In this document: one piece after another, positions 2,927 to 11,243 of the stretch | Numbering within the stretch: the first letter of the stretch is position 1 | Layout of the letters: the number at the start of each line of letters is the position of its first letter | DNA from: an uncultured Methylococcaceae bacterium | Lineage (GTDB): Bacteria > Pseudomonadota > Gammaproteobacteria > Methylococcales > Methylococcaceae | Direction of reading: 5' to 3' | NCBI GenBank assembly: GCA_903911305.1 | Contig: CAIWDB010000248.1 | Location: 1 to 37,191 of the forward strand | Length of the DNA: 37,191 nt | Notes under the pieces: generated by a model | What the model was told of the DNA's origin: nothing | The model's input: the letters and a program-made list of their open reading frames with translations, nothing else | Database searches by the model: none | Translations under genes and position numbers: made by a program

Positions 2927-5176
2927 CTACTCAATATTCAACACCACCAAACTTACATCGTCATTGAATGACGGGCTACCGCAAAATTCGCGTAAACTAG
3001 AAACTATTTTTTGTATGGTTACCTCGGGTGATTCAGAACGGTTGGTAGCAAGCAGGTTGCTTAATTTGGAAATGCCAAAAAATTCCCCGTCCCGATTTTG
3101 GGCTTCGGTAATGCCGTCGGTGTAAAGTAGAATCTTGTCGCCCGGTTGAAAAGACAGGCATTTTTCTTCATACATGACATCCTTCATAACGCCTAAGACC
3201 ATGCCTTCGGTATCCAACTCACGGCATAGTTCGTCGTTGACTGGTAACCATAGCGGACAATTGTGTCCGGCATTGGAATAGCAAAGTTGCCTGAGCGTAG
3301 GGTTGTAACGCATATAGAACATGCTGATGAACAAGTCGGACCCGTTCAAATCATCATGCAAAAGCTCGTTGAGGGAGTGCAGAATTTCAGCAGAACCTTG
3401 GTTAGGTTTCAGTGGATCGGACTTGCGCGCCTCGGCTTTCAGCGTGTTTCGCACACCTGCCATCAGCAAGGCCGCGCCCATGCTATGCCCGGACACGTCG
3501 GCAATGACTATATTTAAAATATCGTCGGAATAGAAATAATCATAATAATCGCCGCCGACATGGGTTGCCGGAAGACAAAAACCAGCGACATGCAAGCCTT
3601 CAATATTCAAAGGCGCCTTTGGCAGCAATGAAATTTGGATTTGTTTGGCGATTTCCAATTCATGGCGTTCTTCCTCATATTTTTTCCGGGCCGAAATGTC
3701 GTGGTCCACGCCCCGCCATTTGATGAGCCGTCCGTCTTCCGCCAAGAAAGGCTTTCCAGTGGATTCTGTGAACACTTCGTGACCGTCTTTGTGACGATAG
3801 CGATTGACCAATCGCTGAAACGGTTCCCGCACTTCAATTGTCGCTGGCAACGCCGTCGTCCAATGTAATTTGTCTTTCTCGGTCAGTAGATTCAGATAGG
3901 ATTTTCCAAGAATTTCTTCAGGTTGATAGCCCAATATCTGGTATACCGCACTACTGCTGTAAATATAACAGCCATCCGGGTCTTGCTCCCATAACCATTC
4001 ACCCGTCATTTCGGCGACTTCGCGAAAGCGCTGTTCGCTGGCTTGCAAAGCTTCTTTATCACGCTTTTGTTCGGTTATATCCTGTTGAATGGATAGAAAA
4101 TGGGTCACCTTGCCTTCACTGTTGCGCACGGGCGAGATGGTTTCCGATGCCCAATACAATTCGCCATTTTGTTTCCTATCTTGAATTTCTTCCTGCCATT
4201 CACCCTCGTTAAGCAGCGTTTCCCTCATTCTTTGGTGTTGCTCTTGTGAGGTTTGGGAAGAACGCAAGAATGATGGGTTTCTGCCGATGACTTCGCTACA
4301 GCTATACCCGGTCAGGTGGGAAAAACTGGTGTTGATATATTCGATAATGCCATTAATATCTGCGATCATGACCGCACTGGGGCTTTGTTCCACCGCCCTA
4401 GATAGGGTATGAAGCTGTTCCTCAGCCCTCTTTCTGGAGGTTAAATCATGGATGACCGCTACAAAAAAACGCTCATTGCCCAGTAATGCTTCACCAATGG
4501 ATAAATGCAGAGGGAATAGGCTTTCGTCTTTGCGTTTTCCGGTGACTTCGCGACCGATACCTATGATTGTTTTGACACCTGTGTGCAAATAGTTTGCGAG
4601 ATACCCGTCATGTTCAGCTTGATGTGGGTTTGGCATGAGGATTTTGACGTTCAACCCTAACACCTCGTCAAATGTATAGCCGAACAGTTTCTCAGCCGCC
4701 GGGTTGAATAATTGAATCAACCCATGCTCATCAATCGCTATGACCCCGTCGGTAATAGTATCCAATATGGTTCTGAGTTTAGTCTCGCTATCACGCAAGG
4801 CCATATCGCATAGTGGTGGGGAAATGGTTTCCCTAAACCGAAGCACTGCCCCAAAAAGCTTGCCATTTTCAATCAGTGGATCAATGCAAAAGGAAAACGT
4901 ATGAGTGGCTTGATCTTTGCAATTTAACGAGGCACTGAGTTCATGAAATGAAACCCCCTCGTGAACTGTCCTCTCCAATAAAGCCAAATGCCCGTCGGCA
5001 AAAAATAAACGTTCAGCGGGTTGACCTAGCAACTCGGCTTCAGCATAACCCAACAATCCATGTGCTACCCGATTCAGTGCTTGAATTTTGCAATCTTTGC
5101 TGAAAAGGCAAACGCCTTCATCAAGCGTGTTCAATGCTGCGAGTAGTATGCTTGTTTCGTTCATGGTGATAGCCAT
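2927..5176 (-). CDS. four-PAS sensor with C-terminal PP2C/SpoIIE (RsbU-type) phosphatase; PAS2 is FixL-like
   Basis: This 749-residue soluble protein has PAS domains at roughly 10-115, 130-250, 255-370 and 385-500, then a short linker helix and an RsbU-type serine phosphatase (about 515-745). The phosphatase metal sites are present: GGDYYDYF (541-548), IADVSGHSMG (D560), LLYTDGITEA (D687) and FNDDVSLVVL (D739/D740). RsbU-type enzymes dephosphorylate anti-sigma-factor antagonists, but no STAS or RsbW partner is nearby. The second PAS contains AEHDGY (H189) and IIGIGREVTGKR (R209), equivalent to the proximal haem histidine and the distal arginine of FixL, with the same 20-residue spacing. Oxygen, NO or redox sensing is therefore plausible. 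Start chosen at the ATG at 5176, which has an AGG nine bases upstream; an ATG 12 bases further in is possible. Confidence 0.88.
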   Translation of the reverse strand: MAITMNETSILLAALNTLDEGVCLFSKDCKIQALNRVAHGLLGYAEAELLGQPAERLFFADGHLALLERTVHEGVSFHELSASLNCKDQATHTFSFCIDPLIENGKLFGAVLRFRETISPPLCDMALRDSETKLRTILDTITDGVIAIDEHGLIQLFNPAAEKLFGYTFDEVLGLNVKILMPNPHQAEHDGYLANYLHTGVKTIIGIGREVTGKRKDESLFPLHLSIGEALLGNERFFVAVIHDLTSRKRAEEQLHTLSRAVEQSPSAVMIADINGIIEYINTSFSHLTGYSCSEVIGRNPSFLRSSQTSQEQHQRMRETLLNEGEWQEEIQDRKQNGELYWASETISPVRNSEGKVTHFLSIQQDITEQKRDKEALQASEQRFREVAEMTGEWLWEQDPDGCYIYSSSAVYQILGYQPEEILGKSYLNLLTEKDKLHWTTALPATIEVREPFQRLVNRYRHKDGHEVFTESTGKPFLAEDGRLIKWRGVDHDISARKKYEEERHELEIAKQIQISLLPKAPLNIEGLHVAGFCLPATHVGGDYYDYFYSDDILNIVIADVSGHSMGAALLMAGVRNTLKAEARKSDPLKPNQGSAEILHSLNELLHDDLNGSDLFISMFYMRYNPTLRQLCYSNAGHNCPLWLPVNDELCRELDTEGMVLGVMKDVMYEEKCLSFQPGDKILLYTDGITEAQNRDGEFFGISKLSNLLATNRSESPEVTIQKIVSSLREFCGSPSFNDDVSLVVLNIE

Positions 5177-5197
5177 AACATAAAACCTGATGAGCAA

Positions 5198-5397: not shown

Positions 5398-6153
5398 TTA
5401 TTCATCATTGTTGGTCTTCACACAGTCTAGGGAAAGGTAATGCTGAATATAGTCGTATAGTTTAGCCATTTCGTCATCCGAAATCGTATCCGTTGTGAAA
5501 GCGGGCATAATGGATTGTCCATCGACAGTGGACGCTGGATTGCGAACATGTTGGGTGAACGTCGCCAAGCTTGCTAGTTGACGTGAGGAGCGTATCGGCT
5601 TGTCAGGCACAATGCGGTTTCCTCCTGAAGGGTGGCAGCTACTGCAATTGGCCTCAAACAAGCTTTGACCTTCATCACGCGGATTGGCTGCGGATGGGGT
5701 ACGACCTGTAAACGTCAATTCGCCACCAAAGAAGCCTAATGAAAGTACACAGATCACACCAATGAAGTAAATGGGCAGCAAGGCTTTAGCTTCCGGGCCA
5801 ACCCGGAAACCGATAAAAATACCTGTCCACATCAGCAGGGTGTAGGGAAAGGCAATCAATAATTTAAATTTGATTGGCTTTAGCAAGCTGCCATTAAAAT
5901 AGTGTTGCCAATCGAGCAAGCCCATGGTCAACGCCACCAACGAAAACAGCCCAGCCAGTACCAAGGCGTGGTAAGCGCTACGCTTCAACTCTGGCTTGCG
6001 AAAAATAATAGCCGCCAAGCACAGCAAAAGTGCGCCTAGATTCATGCCGATAGGCAGATGAACAAGAACAGGGTGCAACGGGTGTTTGTACCCAAAACTT
6101 TCTAAAAAGTGGTAAACGAAATTGCTCGCATCCTTTAAGAGTTCTATCATCAT
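5398..6153 (-). CDS. DUF2231 membrane protein fused to a monohaem cytochrome c
   Basis: The 251-residue product begins with a DUF2231 module: the signature HPLHPVLVHLPIGMNLGA (24-41) and about four transmembrane helices to residue 145. A cytochrome c domain follows, with the haem site CSSCH (170-174) and a likely axial methionine in SIMPAF (M216). The domain presumably lies in the periplasm. DUF2231-cytochrome fusions are thought to be membrane electron-transfer proteins, but no defined reaction is known. It is the last gene of a probable operon, 51 bases after the SGNH hydrolase and downstream of the DoxX/NDH-2-like fusion, which suggests a shared redox role at the cytoplasmic membrane. The electron donor and acceptor cannot be told from sequence. 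Confidence 0.85.
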   Translation of the reverse strand: MMIELLKDASNFVYHFLESFGYKHPLHPVLVHLPIGMNLGALLLCLAAIIFRKPELKRSAYHALVLAGLFSLVALTMGLLDWQHYFNGSLLKPIKFKLLIAFPYTLLMWTGIFIGFRVGPEAKALLPIYFIGVICVLSLGFFGGELTFTGRTPSAANPRDEGQSLFEANCSSCHPSGGNRIVPDKPIRSSRQLASLATFTQHVRNPASTVDGQSIMPAFTTDTISDDEMAKLYDYIQHYLSLDCVKTNNDE

Positions 6154-6204: not shown

Positions 6205-6891
6205 CTACATACCTATGGCTTTCAATATTCCCGGCGTAATCACTTGCTCGCACCCTGTGGTGCCGGGGTGTAGGCCATCGGGGACATATTGCTTGAACAA
6301 GGCAGTATCTGTTTTAAGTATTCGCTGCCATTGCTTTTCATGGTCGATTAACGTTAATTTATATTTTTTTGCGACATCCCGGTACATTTGGTAATAGGCT
6401 TCCATGTCGGGGCGTTTCTCAAGGCTTTCGCCAACCGGCGGGTTCATCGTCATTAGAATAATCTCGACATGACGATTGACTTTGTGGATGCGGGAAATCA
6501 TATTTTCCAAATTGGCCTTGGCTTGGGCCAAAGTAATATGATTGGCCACATGCGCATCATTAATGGCAAACTCGATGAAAACGGTATCCGGTCGTTTTTC
6601 GATAACCCGTTCGTCAAGATTGTCCACCCCCCAAGTTGACCACATCCCCGCTTTGCCGCTATTGATCAGATTGACCAAATTTGGGTATTTGGCTTCCAAG
6701 GCAATGCGTAATTGCCCCACCCATGGCCCAACCTCAGTCAAACTAGTTCCATAGGTGACGATAGTTTGCGGTTTGCCTTGGTTGAGATTGTCGATAAGCT
6801 GGCTTTCGTGGTTTGCAGAAACCGCTTTGAAGGTTAGCAGTATCAGCGCCAATATACTAATCGCTATTAATATAAATTTGGTATTCTTCAT
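6205..6891 (-). CDS. membrane-anchored or secreted SGNH/GDSL hydrolase
   Basis: A 228-residue protein with an N-terminal hydrophobic signal or anchor (ILIAISILALILLTFKAVSA, residues 7-26). The SGNH blocks are all visible: nucleophile serine in TYGTSLTEVG (S50), glycine block INSGKAG, asparagine block EFAINDAH, and the Asp-His pair in DGLHPG near the C terminus. The family contains lipases, esterases, acyl-peptidoglycan and carbohydrate deacetylases; no feature identifies the substrate. The absence of an AxxC lipobox-like site suggests release or anchoring by the signal helix. It starts 3 bases after the stop of the DoxX/NDH-2-like fusion gene, so the two are almost certainly co-transcribed; this pairing of an esterase with redox proteins is unusual. 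Confidence 0.85.
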   Translation of the reverse strand: MKNTKFILIAISILALILLTFKAVSANHESQLIDNLNQGKPQTIVTYGTSLTEVGPWVGQLRIALEAKYPNLVNLINSGKAGMWSTWGVDNLDERVIEKRPDTVFIEFAINDAHVANHITLAQAKANLENMISRIHKVNRHVEIILMTMNPPVGESLEKRPDMEAYYQMYRDVAKKYKLTLIDHEKQWQRILKTDTALFKQYVPDGLHPGTTGCEQVITPGILKAIGM

Positions 6892-6894
6892 TGA

Positions 6895-9528
6895 TCAAGC
6901 TTTATTCCTTTCCTCGACTTGTTGTTGAATAGCTTTTGCCATAATGCTTGAACCCACGCTTAGACTTTGGAAATCTTCACCCGTCAGTACAGTCAATTCG
7001 CAAGGGGTCAGGCAGCGGACTGTTGCGGTACGAATGCTGTCTTGCAACAGGGCGATTTCGCCAAAATGATCGCCTTCAGTCAATTCGCCCACTTTCTTGC
7101 CATTCTTCAACACTTCCAACCGACCCGTTTGTACGATATAGGCAGTGTCGCCGCGTTCGCCTTGGCGGATGACTTCGTCGCCGGGTTCAAAGTGGAGCTT
7201 TTGCAATCGTTCCGTGGCATCGGGTGTCAACACGGCAATGTCGGCACGGAATGGCACATCCAAGCACCAGTCAATCAAAATTCTTAAGTTGCGTTCCAAT
7301 CCCGGCAGGGCGGCGAGATTGGTCACACGGGACAGGAACCATGCCGGCGTGCCACCAAACGACAATGGCCCTAGGCGGCAGATTGAACGGCGACCCATGT
7401 TGTAGATTTTCAGCCAACGATCCTTGGGTTTGAAAGCATGGGTGGGGAATTCCTGCGAAGCCGCCCAAGCATTTTGGCCTACCGTCTTGCCCAGATCGAC
7501 ATAATCCGCCGTCGTGAGGAACTTCTTGTCCTCGTGTTGTTGCTTCATCGCCGTCACCCAAATGTGAGGACGGTCCTTAAACCTGAGTTCATCGTCAATG
7601 TCCAACGGCCAGCGGTAGGTTTGGTTGTCGATTTGCAAACTGGGCAACTTGAATGACGCATTGACCACCAGCCCCACGCTTTGTCGTTCGCCGTCAGCCA
7701 ATACAATCGCATCGCGGGTGATCGCGGTTATTTCTTTGTTCCTGCACAGGGTCACGCCTGATTTTTCCAATGCAAGATCGCGTTGGCTCTTTATCATGCT
7801 TTCAAAGCCACTGAAGGGTGCTTTGCTGTCTTCATACAGTAACACCTGCCAAGGGTGTTGTTTGAGTATCGGGTAGGATGTTTCCACCGTCTTCAACATT
7901 TCGCAAATTTCCACCGCAGTCGCGCAGGAACGTTGACCCGATCCAATCACCGCGAAATTCAACAGGCGTTTTCTTTCCGCTGGGTCATCGCTGGCTTCGG
8001 CGTTTTCCACGGAGTCCATGATCTGCTTGCGTATGTGCAAGGCATCGCCCACCGAGTCGATAGGGCTAGTATGAGCCATCATGCCCGGCAACCCAGTCAA
8101 ATTAGGGATTGGGAACAATGCCAGCACTAATTCATCGTAGGGAAGTTCGACGGAGCGGTCGTTTTGTAAAAGGGTGATGATTTTTGCATGGGTGTCCACA
8201 CGCGACACTTCCCCCAATTTAACCCGTGTATTGGGAAGTATTCGGCGTATCGGATTCACCACATTGCCGGGTTGCATCGTCCCCCCTATGACCTCTGGCA
8301 GCAAGGGATAAAACAACATATTCGGATGGGTATGGACGAGAGTTAAGTTCACTCGCGTGTATTGTCCGATCAATCGTTCGATCTTCATAGCAGCATGGAT
8401 GGCCGCCACGGTTCCGCCAATAATGACAATATTGGCTGATTTGTCTTTAGCTTCAGGCATGTGAAAATGTCCCGCACCGTTGAATAAAAGGGAAAGCATG
8501 ACTCCGTAATACAACGCATGAGCCATCCAACTCTCAGGCAGCAAAGCCGCGAAAAATAGAAATGCAAAAAAGAAGAATAGCGACAAAGGTCGCAGCATGA
8601 CCCCAACTGTGATCAATATACCGCAAGTGAACTCAACCAAAGCCATTAACAGGGTGAACGTGTCGGGTGCCGATGACATAATAGGCACATTAAACAAAGT
8701 CAGTATGCCCAAGGCTAGGTTGGGCTGGAAAACTTTGTAGACGACTGCCAGATACAATATGTTTAACCCGGCCAACACGCGCATGATGGCTTGTGCCCGC
8801 TGCCTAGGAATGGCAGCAAGTTGGGTTTGCAAGGGGAGCAAACCCGGCGTCACCGGCAATTGCACAAAATAATTGCCCGGGCCTTGCAACAATAGATAAA
8901 TGGCAACGCCCGCTAGCGCACTGGCATAAGCGAATAAATCTTGTTGGAACAAAACCAAGCCGAATAAAGCCAGTAACATAAGAGCCACCGACAAGATACG
9001 GACATAAATGCCAAGCAGAAAACCAAGCCCGAGCAAAAACTCTATCCAGCGCAAGCCTAGCAAGCTGGACCCATAAGCATTTAACTCCAAGTCAGGAGCG
9101 AAAAGGGTAGGGGATGCGAATTGTTGCACACCATGGCGGGGTTCAAAGCCAAGGGCTGATGAGATCAATACCCACGCCAAACAGAATCTGAGTATCGGTG
9201 AGACATAATCGCCATAGCTTCCCAAACGGGCTTGTAAATCGGGGAATAGGTCTTTTGCACCGGTAAAGCCCAAGCGTATCCAGCCTATCGCGAACAGGGC
9301 AAACGCCGAGATCATGCTGAGGTTTAAGAAAGATAGAGACGTATAGAGGGAAGGTTTTGGCTTCGCATTCCATTCAACGACTTGGTCGGGGGTTAAAATC
9401 CAGCGTTCATGTGCGATGCTAGTATCAGCCCACAGCAAAATAGCAAGCAAAGACAAGGCGGGTATTGCCCATGCCCGCCATCGCATGAGTAAGATCAAAA
9501 AGTGTCTCCGGTCAAGCCAAATTGGCAT
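6895..9528 (-). CDS. DoxX-like membrane domain + degenerate NDH-2-like domain + cyclic nucleotide-binding domain fusion
   Basis: This 877-residue protein has three parts. Residues about 1-355 hold eight or more hydrophobic helices resembling DoxX/SURF4-type proteins. Residues about 365-765 align with type II NADH dehydrogenase, including FYPLLPEVIGG, LPYDELVLA, the second nucleotide fold FAVIGSGQRSC, and MGRRSICRLG with FGGTPAWFLSRVTNL. Residues about 778-865 are a CAP-family cyclic nucleotide-binding domain with GEIALLQDSIRTATV, including the Glu and Arg that normally contact the cyclic phosphate. The usual FAD motifs are replaced: GGTVAA for GGGxAG, LVLALFP for LVLATG, and WVTAM for xxGDC. 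Flavin binding is therefore doubtful. The start at 9528 is set by AGGAG at 9537-9541, eight bases upstream; 19 further in-frame residues lie beyond it. First gene of the operon ending at 5398. Confidence 0.82.
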   Translation of the reverse strand: MPIWLDRRHFLILLMRWRAWAIPALSLLAILLWADTSIAHERWILTPDQVVEWNAKPKPSLYTSLSFLNLSMISAFALFAIGWIRLGFTGAKDLFPDLQARLGSYGDYVSPILRFCLAWVLISSALGFEPRHGVQQFASPTLFAPDLELNAYGSSLLGLRWIEFLLGLGFLLGIYVRILSVALMLLALFGLVLFQQDLFAYASALAGVAIYLLLQGPGNYFVQLPVTPGLLPLQTQLAAIPRQRAQAIMRVLAGLNILYLAVVYKVFQPNLALGILTLFNVPIMSSAPDTFTLLMALVEFTCGILITVGVMLRPLSLFFFFAFLFFAALLPESWMAHALYYGVMLSLLFNGAGHFHMPEAKDKSANIVIIGGTVAAIHAAMKIERLIGQYTRVNLTLVHTHPNMLFYPLLPEVIGGTMQPGNVVNPIRRILPNTRVKLGEVSRVDTHAKIITLLQNDRSVELPYDELVLALFPIPNLTGLPGMMAHTSPIDSVGDALHIRKQIMDSVENAEASDDPAERKRLLNFAVIGSGQRSCATAVEICEMLKTVETSYPILKQHPWQVLLYEDSKAPFSGFESMIKSQRDLALEKSGVTLCRNKEITAITRDAIVLADGERQSVGLVVNASFKLPSLQIDNQTYRWPLDIDDELRFKDRPHIWVTAMKQQHEDKKFLTTADYVDLGKTVGQNAWAASQEFPTHAFKPKDRWLKIYNMGRRSICRLGPLSFGGTPAWFLSRVTNLAALPGLERNLRILIDWCLDVPFRADIAVLTPDATERLQKLHFEPGDEVIRQGERGDTAYIVQTGRLEVLKNGKKVGELTEGDHFGEIALLQDSIRTATVRCLTPCELTVLTGEDFQSLSVGSSIMAKAIQQQVEERNKA

Positions 9529-9674
9529 ATTCTTCACTCCTGTTGGTTTTTTTCTTATGGACTCTGAAGAAAGACAAGGGTTCATTTAGGATTGGAATAT
9601 TAAAATCTTGGTGAATTGTGTCAATTCAATCGACTGATTCTATCATGCTTTGTATCATTTTCACTGACCTATAA

Positions 9675-9716
9675 AAGGCTTGCCCTGCCTGTACGCGCAC
9701 TCGCAAGGCAAGCCTT
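9675..9716. repeat. inverted repeat between divergent genes
   Basis: The arms AAGGCTTGCC (9675-9684) and GGCAAGCCTT (9707-9716) are perfect 10-base complements around a 22-base loop. The element sits in the 302-base gap between the divergent DoxX/NDH-2-like gene and mtnB, where both promoters should lie. It cannot terminate either gene. It could be an operator, a leader structure for mtnB, or a dispersed repeat. The rest of the gap shows nothing else I can name. Confidence 0.6.
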
Positions 9717-9830
9717 GCACTCCCGCATCACTTTTATCGCACCCAGCGACGCCTAACAATTGAGCCAAACAGCCTCACGGTCTACAATCATAACCAAGCC
9801 AACGAAAACCAATCAACGGAGAACACCGTT

Positions 9831-10454
9831 ATGCCTATCACCCAAGAGTTTGAAGCCCGTGCCGCCGAATTGATCGAAGCGGGACGGTTTATCCATGCCC
9901 GTGGTTGGGCGCCAGCCACCAGTGGCAATTTTTCCGCACGCTTATCGGATGGCAGCATTGCCATTACCGTGTCCGGGAAAAACAAAGGGGCGTTGACATT
10001 GGACGACATCATGCGGGTTGACGAAGCAGGCCGTCCGCTGGATGATAAGAAACCCTCTGCTGAAACCCTATTACATACCTCGCTCTATCGGCGTTATGCC
10101 TGGATAAAGTCTATATTGCACCCGCATTCCCCTAATTCATCACTTGTTTCCAAATTATTCGCCCATGAGGTGGTACTGGAAGACAACGAATTGTTAAAGG
10201 CGATGGAAGGTGTGAATACCCACGAAAAACGTGTTGTGGTGCCTATTTTCCCTAATGACCAAAATATTCCCCATTTATCGTTAAGAGTGGATGAATACAT
10301 CGAAATGCACGGCGACGACATTTACGGTTACATCATTGCCGGTCATGGGTTCTATACTTGGGGTATGTCAGTTGAACACGCCTTGCGGCATGTTGAAGCA
10401 TTGGAGCATTTGTTTGACATAGAATTGCGCTTGCACGGGTTAAAAAATAGATAA
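9831..10454 (+). CDS. mtnB: methylthioribulose-1-phosphate dehydratase MtnB
   Basis: MtnB removes water from 5-methylthioribulose-1-phosphate in the methionine salvage pathway and is a zinc enzyme of the class II aldolase/adducin fold. The 207-residue product shows the expected blocks: WAPATSGNFSARL (residues 26-38), PSAETLLH (E78, likely catalytic acid), zinc ligands H97 and H99 in ILHPHSPNS, and the third ligand H172 in IAGHGFYTWG. A good ribosome site (GGAG at 9818-9821, nine bases upstream) supports the start. No mtnA, mtnC, mtnD or mtnK lies in the window; instead the next gene, 3 bases away, is a succinate dehydrogenase iron-sulfur subunit. Confidence 0.93.
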   Translation: MPITQEFEARAAELIEAGRFIHARGWAPATSGNFSARLSDGSIAITVSGKNKGALTLDDIMRVDEAGRPLDDKKPSAETLLHTSLYRRYAWIKSILHPHSPNSSLVSKLFAHEVVLEDNELLKAMEGVNTHEKRVVVPIFPNDQNIPHLSLRVDEYIEMHGDDIYGYIIAGHGFYTWGMSVEHALRHVEALEHLFDIELRLHGLKNR

Positions 10455-10457
10455 GCG

Positions 10458-11243
10458 ATGGTTATGAAAGTCAAATTAAAAATATGGCGACAACCCAACC
10501 AAAACGCCAAGGGAGGGTTTAAAAACTATGCGCTTGATCATGTCGTCGCCGAAATGTCATTTTTGGAAATGATGGAGACCTTGAATGCGCAATTGATCAA
10601 AAAGGGTGAAGACCCGGTGGCATTCGATCATGATTGCCACGAAGGCATTTGCGGCATGTGTAGCATGCATATCAATGGTCGTCCACATGGCCCTTTGCAG
10701 ACTACGACCTGCCAGTTATATATGCGGTCATTCAAGGATGGACAGACTATCGTGGTGGAGCCATGGCGGGCTAGGGCCTTCCCGGTGATTAAAGATTTGA
10801 TCGTCAATCGTTCCGCATTCGACCGGATTCTCCAAGCCGGAGGATATATTTCCGTCAATACTGGCGGTGCGCCCGATGCCAATGCCATTCCCGTCCCCAA
10901 AAAAATCGCTGACGAAGCCTTCAATTCCGCCATGTGCATAGGCTGCGGCGCTTGTGTGGCGGCGTGTAAAAATGCCTCGGCGATGTTGTTTGTCGGCGCA
11001 AAAGTCTCCCATCTTTCCCTGTTGCCGCAAGGCCGGCCAGAACGCAAGGAACGGGTGGAAAGCATGGTCGCCCAAATGGACAAGGAGGGTTTCGGTGCCT
11101 GTTCCAATACCGGCGCCTGTGAAGCCGAATGCCCCAAAGGAATTAAAATCACCAACATCGCCCGGCTAAACCGGGAGTATATCGCAGCCATGTTAACCTC
11201 CTATGAGGTTGATGTCGGCGGCGCAGATCATGAACATGAATGA
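10458..11243 (+). CDS. sdhB: succinate dehydrogenase/fumarate reductase iron-sulfur subunit
   Basis: The 261-residue protein carries all three clusters of SdhB/FrdB. The [2Fe-2S] cysteines are C60, C65, C68 and C85. C160, C163, C166 and C225 should bind [4Fe-4S]; C170, C215 and C221 should bind [3Fe-4S]. The C215/C221/C225 spacing (6 and 4) equals that of E. coli SdhB. The long loop between C68 and C85 and the block [20 protein letters not shown] point to the subfamily found in non-classical (B-type-like) complexes rather than the E. coli enzyme. No flavoprotein or membrane-anchor gene is beside it. It starts 3 bases after mtnB, so it is probably co-transcribed. M3 is an alternative start. 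Confidence 0.92.

Follow-up and report, generated by a model that had tools for sequence, protein, structure and literature searches.

The stretch of DNA analysed here, called the window in the following, consists of 37,191 nucleotides of contig CAIWDB010000248.1 from an uncultured Methylococcaceae bacterium, whose genome is assembled into 661 contigs for a total of 5.8 Mb. On its minus strand, at positions 6895 to 9528, lies a gene coding for 877 aa that combines a signal peptide, a DoxX-type membrane domain, an apparent pseudo-NDH-2, and a cyclic-nucleotide-binding domain (CNBD). This length is obtained with the ATG at 9528, the upstream ATG at 9585 giving 896 aa, and the stop codon is found at 6895-6897. 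Residues 1-39 (9412 to 9528, minus strand) form a probable cleavable signal peptide, as suggested by a helix at 7-33 in the model and by a dN/dS unlike that of the rest of the protein; the cut would fall before His40. Residues 40-350 (8479 to 9411, minus strand) make up the DoxX-type membrane domain, with nine predicted membrane helices and conserved polar residues, identified from the model and from the Pfam DoxX profile PF07681 (29.4 bits vs. a curated cut-off of 23.6, E 1.2e-6, in two stretches). Residues 362-755 (7264 to 8445, minus strand) hold a complete NDH-2 fold without its cofactor motifs, matched to 5kmq by VIA-align, and Pfam places Pyr_redox_2 at residues 366-623 (E 7.4e-16, above the curated cut-off). 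The CNBD occupies residues 776-860 (6949 to 7203, minus strand), where cNMP_binding PF00027 covers residues 778-856 (E 1.4e-20, 73.5 bits vs. a curated cut-off of 27.5), and includes a phosphate-binding cassette, FGEIALLQDSIRTATVR, with Glu824 and Arg833 (7015 to 7065, minus strand). The original prediction of an NDH-2 fused to a DoxX-like membrane domain and a cyclic nucleotide domain is thus recovered by the three Pfam families. All these domains are of known kinds, and it is their combination that is new: as anticipated, no description of this three-domain architecture was found among the open-licence papers listed, judged by title or start of abstract.

On the same strand, a GDSL/SGNH hydrolase (6205 to 6891; Pfam PF13472, E 1.8e-18) starts 3 bases downstream; this neighbour is present in four of the five same-genus loci compared (the window, L029, L030, and L032, not L031) and is probably an operon partner in the window's genus. 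It is followed by a membrane protein of the DUF2231 type that also carries a cytochrome c domain (5398 to 6153, minus strand; Pfam); among 36 loci, a relative of it occurs in the vicinity of a single further copy of the gene (L089). Our guess is that it acts as a redox partner. We also considered a conserved operon, which was ruled out, as the neighbours differ between genera. Further downstream, a phosphatase of the SpoIIE type, with PAS in four stretches, is encoded in the same orientation as our gene (2927-5197). Two genes at 1150-2686 give Pfam matches to Ferric_reduct and Oxidored_molyb; we take them to be YedZ/MsrQ-like and YedY/MsrP-like. A similar pair lies beside or near a longer, fused version of our gene (see below) at loci L083 and L092. 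Inspection by eye also showed a short protein resembling PAS/LOV near it and, in L092 and L060, a photolyase-like gene. On the other side of the gene, an SdhB-type iron-sulfur subunit (10458-11243) is found directly behind a methylthioribulose-1-phosphate dehydratase (9831-10454), and no other Sdh subunit was recognised near it by inspection of the listed ORFs.

Profile searches gave matches in 19 of the 38 genomes of the window's family. In a sample of the order, 54 of 301 genomes match at 1e-30, a number that falls to 53 when G437, which matches over the NDH-2 part alone, is set aside. A second family (f8) also gave matches, and its uncut frames are long forms of 1211-1268 aa, which carry a photoactivated adenylyl cyclase (PAC) fused at the C-terminus; of the 34 matches in f8, 20 were read, together with the three long forms of the window's family. 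Pfam run on three long forms identifies a BLUF domain in all three and a cyclase in two, with a single cyclase match exceeding the cut-off. Outside Methylococcales, no three-domain protein was present in the class sample (369 genomes) or the phylum sample (398 genomes), where the partial matches are either isolated DoxX-type domains or intact proteins of the NDH-2 and NDH-2-CNBD kinds. A contig scan using the single protein as query, which reaches close relatives only, returned four loci.

The intact NDH-2-CNBD proteins deserve a comment. Two of them, of 573-588 aa, are encoded in two genomes of another family (G703 and G853; L099, positions 7966-9729, and L100, positions 2971-4689) and resemble our protein in having an NDH-2 followed by a CNBD, but they keep all four cofactor motifs, have no DoxX domain, and fall outside the pseudo-NDH-2 clade described below. 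Membership of our protein in this known fusion was rejected on the absence of DoxX and the conservation of the motifs in L099 and L100. These proteins are possibly respiratory NDH-2s regulated by cyclic nucleotides.

The fold of the NDH-2 domain is well retained, as had been proposed: structural modelling followed by VIA-align matches residues 364-749 to the NDH-2 5kmq with Z 38.7 and an rmsd of 2.6 Å over 372 aligned residues. The likeness to the NDH-2 of Caldalkalibacillus thermarum (4nwz/5kmq) thus extends over the complete fold at 21-22% identity; what differs is that the FAD and NADH motifs are lost here and that the domain sits between a DoxX-type domain and a CNBD. When the full chain is modelled with AlphaFold (27 sequences, mean pLDDT 77, pTM 0.52), the arrangement of its domains cannot be relied upon, and a PDB sequence search with the whole protein, which returned mostly CNBD chains plus the mycobacterial NDH-2 9mqy (E 5.6e-22), does not inform the architecture.

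The three losses of FAD contacts pointed out in the original prediction are present as quoted: the degenerate first motif GGTVAA at residues 371-376 (8401 to 8418, minus strand), LVLALFP in place of the ATG-type motif at residues 467-473 (8110 to 8130, minus strand), and WVTAM replacing the GDC-type motif at residues 657-661 (7546 to 7560, minus strand). A fourth loss had been overlooked. The NADH motif, GGGxSGVE in most intact relatives, reads GSGQRSCA here (residues 529-536), so that GSGQRS (residues 529-534; 7927 to 7944, minus strand) has lost both the third Gly and the following Glu. These motifs were compared between 13 intact relatives, 23 fused forms, and 14 short forms, each of the latter from a different genome; the intact group excludes L066, a fragment of a three-domain protein from G014 that reads GGGAAA. 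At the third Gly of the FAD motif GxGxxG, 14/14 short and 23/23 fused forms have Ala, and 13/13 intact relatives keep the Gly; likewise, all 37 short and fused forms lack, and all 13 intact relatives possess, the ATG-motif Gly, the third Gly of the NADH motif with the Glu that comes after it, and the Asp of GDC. The first FAD motif begins with GGT instead of GGG in the short forms, while the fused forms retain GGG, and the single Ala at the second FAD Gly among the intact rows belongs to L077. Orthologues in four same-genus genomes (81-87% identity) and in eight further genomes of the family (62-65% identity) also have GGTVAA and the other losses, and the pattern is therefore far beyond chance. 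Taken together, the sequences make a strong case that the NDH-2 part is a pseudo-enzyme that has lost its FAD and NADH motifs.

One has to keep in mind that lost motifs may simply indicate a gene on its way out. Our search for three-domain homologues gave none with intact motifs that would turn this copy into a decayed exception, the motifs being missing from 14/14 short and 23/23 fused forms. In nine pairs of short-form genomes, dN/dS was 0.05-0.11 for the pseudo-NDH-2 and 0.045-0.10 for the DoxX domain, and in the eight of nine pairs where it could be computed it was 0.02-0.06 for the CNBD and 0.19-1.2 for residues 1-38; five of the nine have a synonymous divergence above 1, which makes their ratios rough. 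In a tree of 51 NDH-2 domains (the G032 protein is included twice, hence 15 short rows for 14 genomes), all short and fused forms stand on one side of a branch supported at 100/100, with the 13 sampled intact relatives outside this clade. Inside the clade, support for a grouping of the fused forms is no more than 70/100, and the short forms do not resolve into a single group. Shared losses, low dN/dS, and clade placement together rule out a decayed exception. The idea of a respiratory enzyme turned into a sensor or scaffold gains support at the sequence level from losses common to 37/37 three-domain relatives and from purifying selection in the short forms. The fused forms of the window's own family (L061 in G006, L062 in G012, and L060 in G017) branch with the f8 sequences, which suggests a transfer between the two families.

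The membrane domain was also modelled alone (pLDDT 85.6, pTM 0.83), giving a signal-like helix at 7-33 and then nine membrane helices; with the signal peptide cut off, nine helices would place the NDH-2 and the CNBD in the cytoplasm; the loops carry too few charges for their distribution to bear on this topology. Six residues, His40, Glu41, Asp146, Glu299, Glu332, and His337, are invariant or nearly so even in distant standalone relatives; five of these six acidic or histidine residues map to the predicted periplasmic side, Glu299 being inside a helix, and the conserved arginines 177, 242, 244, 250, and 313 fall on the cytoplasmic side of the predicted topology. The mature chain would begin with His-Glu-x-Trp (residues 40-43; window positions 9400-9411) after the probable signal peptide, a stretch that is nearly invariant in the family and in the distant standalone DoxX-type proteins L058, L101, and L102; we would guess that the N-terminal His binds a metal such as copper. 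While the relationship to the DoxX family is given by a Pfam match above cut-off, the likeness to the GGCX transmembrane domain is a weak fold match only. GGCX ranks first with VIA-align and takes 16 of the first 18 rows (Z 10.9, rmsd 4.2 Å, 216 aligned), but this Z is in the ambiguous range for helical folds, the unrelated helical protein 3dby reaching Z 9.0; Foldseek alone gave no match to the membrane domain under E 0.001, its best GGCX row having E 0.61. The GGCX transmembrane domain binds a quinone, and a quinone- or cytochrome-linked output of our membrane domain is a guess. This guess is helped by c-type cytochrome neighbours: beyond the DUF2231-cytochrome c protein of the window, a CCP/MauG-type protein adjoins the fused gene in 12 of the 20 f8 loci fetched (0 of 5 same-genus loci), and a small cytochrome c is encoded near the PAC in G007 and G032.

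At the other end of the protein, the phosphate-binding cassette, FGEIALLQDSIRTATV, retains the Glu and Arg (Glu824 and Arg833), as originally noted; we presume that they have their usual functional role. The pocket is canonical in 14/14 short forms, where Glu824, Ala826, Leu827, Arg833, and Ala835 are all kept. In the fused forms, the pocket Glu and Arg themselves are retained, but in 23/23 the Ala two positions after the pocket Arg is changed to Glu or Asp and the Leu three positions after the pocket Glu to Pro, Gln, or Met. The genome of the window encodes two further CNBD proteins.

A source for the cyclic nucleotide is suggested by the PAC already mentioned in the long forms. Among the 15 genomes of the family that have a short form, 14 encode a standalone PAC, that is, a separate BLUF-cyclase gene, and only G027 (72% complete) does not; a PAC is also found in 2 of the 19 family genomes without the protein (G031 and G034). 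Fisher's test on this difference gives 1.6e-6, phylogeny being ignored. The count does not include G014, whose gene is truncated by the end of a contig. No separate PAC was found in the three family genomes with fused forms. The PAC lies within about 2 kb of our gene in 8 of 14 cases, close by in the neighbourhoods of G007, G016, G032, and G035 as well as in G021, G024, G029 (a fragment at a contig start), and G061. These eight adjacent cases represent two genera only, and in the six others (G000, G001, G002, G003, G005, and G009), the genome of the window being among these unlinked cases, the PAC is on another contig. In the window's genus, G004 has neither the protein nor a PAC, and G006 has a fused form and no separate PAC. 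Across the 301 genomes of the order, a PAC is present in 51, the protein in 53, and both in 49, keeping in mind that in f8 the overlap is trivial because both are one gene; the protein occurs without a PAC in G014 and G633 (genes cut by contig ends), G653 (frame ending at 610 aa), and G027. Second PAC copies exist on other contigs in G016 (C180, 17690-18709) and G029 (C115, 3778-4800). A protein with a response-regulator receiver and a metallo-beta-lactamase fold, identified by Pfam on the L106 copy, adjoins the PAC at L106 (2755-3996), L067 (8660-10042), and L065 (9646-10569); that it is a phosphodiesterase for the signal is a guess.

The PAC of the window's genome (contig C117, positions 1920-2942, L117) matches OaPAC (5x4t) at E 5.9e-98 over 328 residues. 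It has YIS, RNN, FFQ, and WSM, which we take to carry the BLUF Tyr, Asn, Gln, and Trp/Met in their usual roles, together with the class III cyclase motifs FCDMVGFS, YVGDC, and VNMAARLE, which hold the metal Asp pair and the Asn/Arg, presumably with their catalytic functions. The Lys, Asp, and Thr that we assume to be the ATP-selecting sites are also kept, and therefore the predicted product is cAMP. The metal-Asp and Asn/Arg catalytic motifs are intact in the standalone PACs of 14/14 short-form genomes (read in G029 from a partial frame). The fused forms have a different fate. Their BLUF residues are retained as far as the sequences cover them. In the cyclase, however, all 22 C-termini read have lost the first metal Asp (the truncated L085 is outside this count), and the second Asp is left in 4/22. 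Fused and standalone PACs are split at 100/99 in the PAC tree, and the branching of G003, G005, G000, and G001/G002 is identical in the PAC and NDH-2 trees, although common descent alone gives the same result. Fusion, cyclase decay, and CNBD change are a shared history of one group and hence represent few events; the parallel change of cyclase and CNBD fits, as far as sequences can tell, a pathway where cyclase and receptor lived and decayed together. OaPAC and bPAC (5m27) have the same two domains as the fused relatives, BLUF and cyclase, but they are soluble enzymes, whereas in our case the partner to which the PAC is linked or fused is a membrane pseudo-enzyme, and the cyclase of the fused forms lacks one catalytic residue. 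Co-occurrence, adjacency, and fusion provide good, if indirect, evidence that the PAC is tied to the membrane protein, and the originally proposed regulation by cyclic nucleotides would be strengthened accordingly by this apparent link.

Several explanations can be put forward for such a protein. We moderately favour, as somewhat better than an even bet, a membrane effector of a Methylococcales blue-light/cAMP pathway, with the dead NDH-2 as coupling domain. The two genomes having a PAC and no such protein count against this reading. A scaffold regulated by cyclic nucleotides and having no link to light, whose CNBD would sense cAMP in general and whose association with the PAC would come from shared ancestry and a chance fusion, seems unlikely to us: it would account for the six of 14 short-form genomes with an unlinked PAC, cAMP could act through the two other CNBD proteins in the window's genome, and the co-occurrence test ignores phylogeny; however, the PAC adjoins the gene in 8 of 14 short-form genomes, is fused to it in the long forms, and is missing together with the protein from G004 of the same genus. 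The CNBD might also have ceased to bind nucleotide, the cytoplasmic half serving the DoxX domain as a platform for structure or oligomerisation. Canonical binding indeed looks dispensable in the fused relatives, which are still widespread with their pocket substitutions (Pro and Glu among them), but the five pocket residues kept in 14/14 short forms and a CNBD dN/dS of 0.02-0.06 in 8/9 pairs make this quite unlikely.

A surviving flavoenzyme, binding FAD without the standard motifs or holding a different cofactor in the pocket, would agree with the intact NDH-2 fold, the GGG retained by the fused forms at the first motif, and a conserved LLPEVIGG-type stretch; against this, 37/37 have jointly lost the GDC Asp, the ATG Gly, the NADH Glu, and the third Gly in each of the two Rossmann motifs, and we regard it as very unlikely. 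As for a gene in the course of decay, for which the cofactor motifs lost from an enzyme fold could speak, it is contradicted by a dN/dS of 0.05-0.11 in the pseudo-NDH-2 domain and by the same losses across two families, and we give it next to no credence.

The loss of the dinucleotide motifs, the conserved architecture, the purifying selection, and the PAC link can be read from the sequences themselves, and a blue-light/cAMP pathway built on them could operate as follows. The BLUF photoactivated adenylyl cyclase, encoded elsewhere in the genome, would produce cAMP in the light; cAMP would bind the CNBD; the catalytically dead NDH-2, binding neither FAD nor NADH, would relay a shape change to the membrane domain; and the output would be an altered state of the DoxX-type domain, which may bind quinone or meet periplasmic cytochrome c. 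Here we infer the synthesis and binding of cAMP, the coupling through shape, the topology, and the quinone or cytochrome output. In the fused forms, where the cyclase and the CNBD pocket appear decayed, light would presumably be relayed by direct contact. A bolder reading, which we hold to be improbable but worth stating, sees the fused lineage as a photoreceptor made of dead enzymes: BLUF would sense light, and the dead cyclase, the vestigial CNBD, and the dead NDH-2 would relay strain by contact up to a membrane domain that binds quinone or faces a cytochrome, the short forms performing the same step through diffusible cAMP from a separate PAC. If true, the family documents how a pathway based on a second messenger collapses into one membrane redox protein under the control of light.

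For LprA of Leptospira kobayashii, the synthesis of a cyclic nucleotide is described to depend on light and to act on the cell, namely on its motility (PMC9043183); the likeness stops at this point, the output being different and no membrane effector being named in the excerpt of that paper. The blue-light/cAMP reading proposed here would bear on a wider question. Photoactivated cyclases are widely used in optogenetics, and to our knowledge the physiological targets of the bacterial ones are little known. In Methylococcales, co-occurrence, adjacency, and fusion connect the PAC with a membrane protein that is a candidate for its dedicated effector, and a dead NDH-2 under purifying selection would be a respiratory enzyme turned into a signalling part. 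The question thus raised is whether light reaches membrane redox chemistry in methane-oxidising bacteria.
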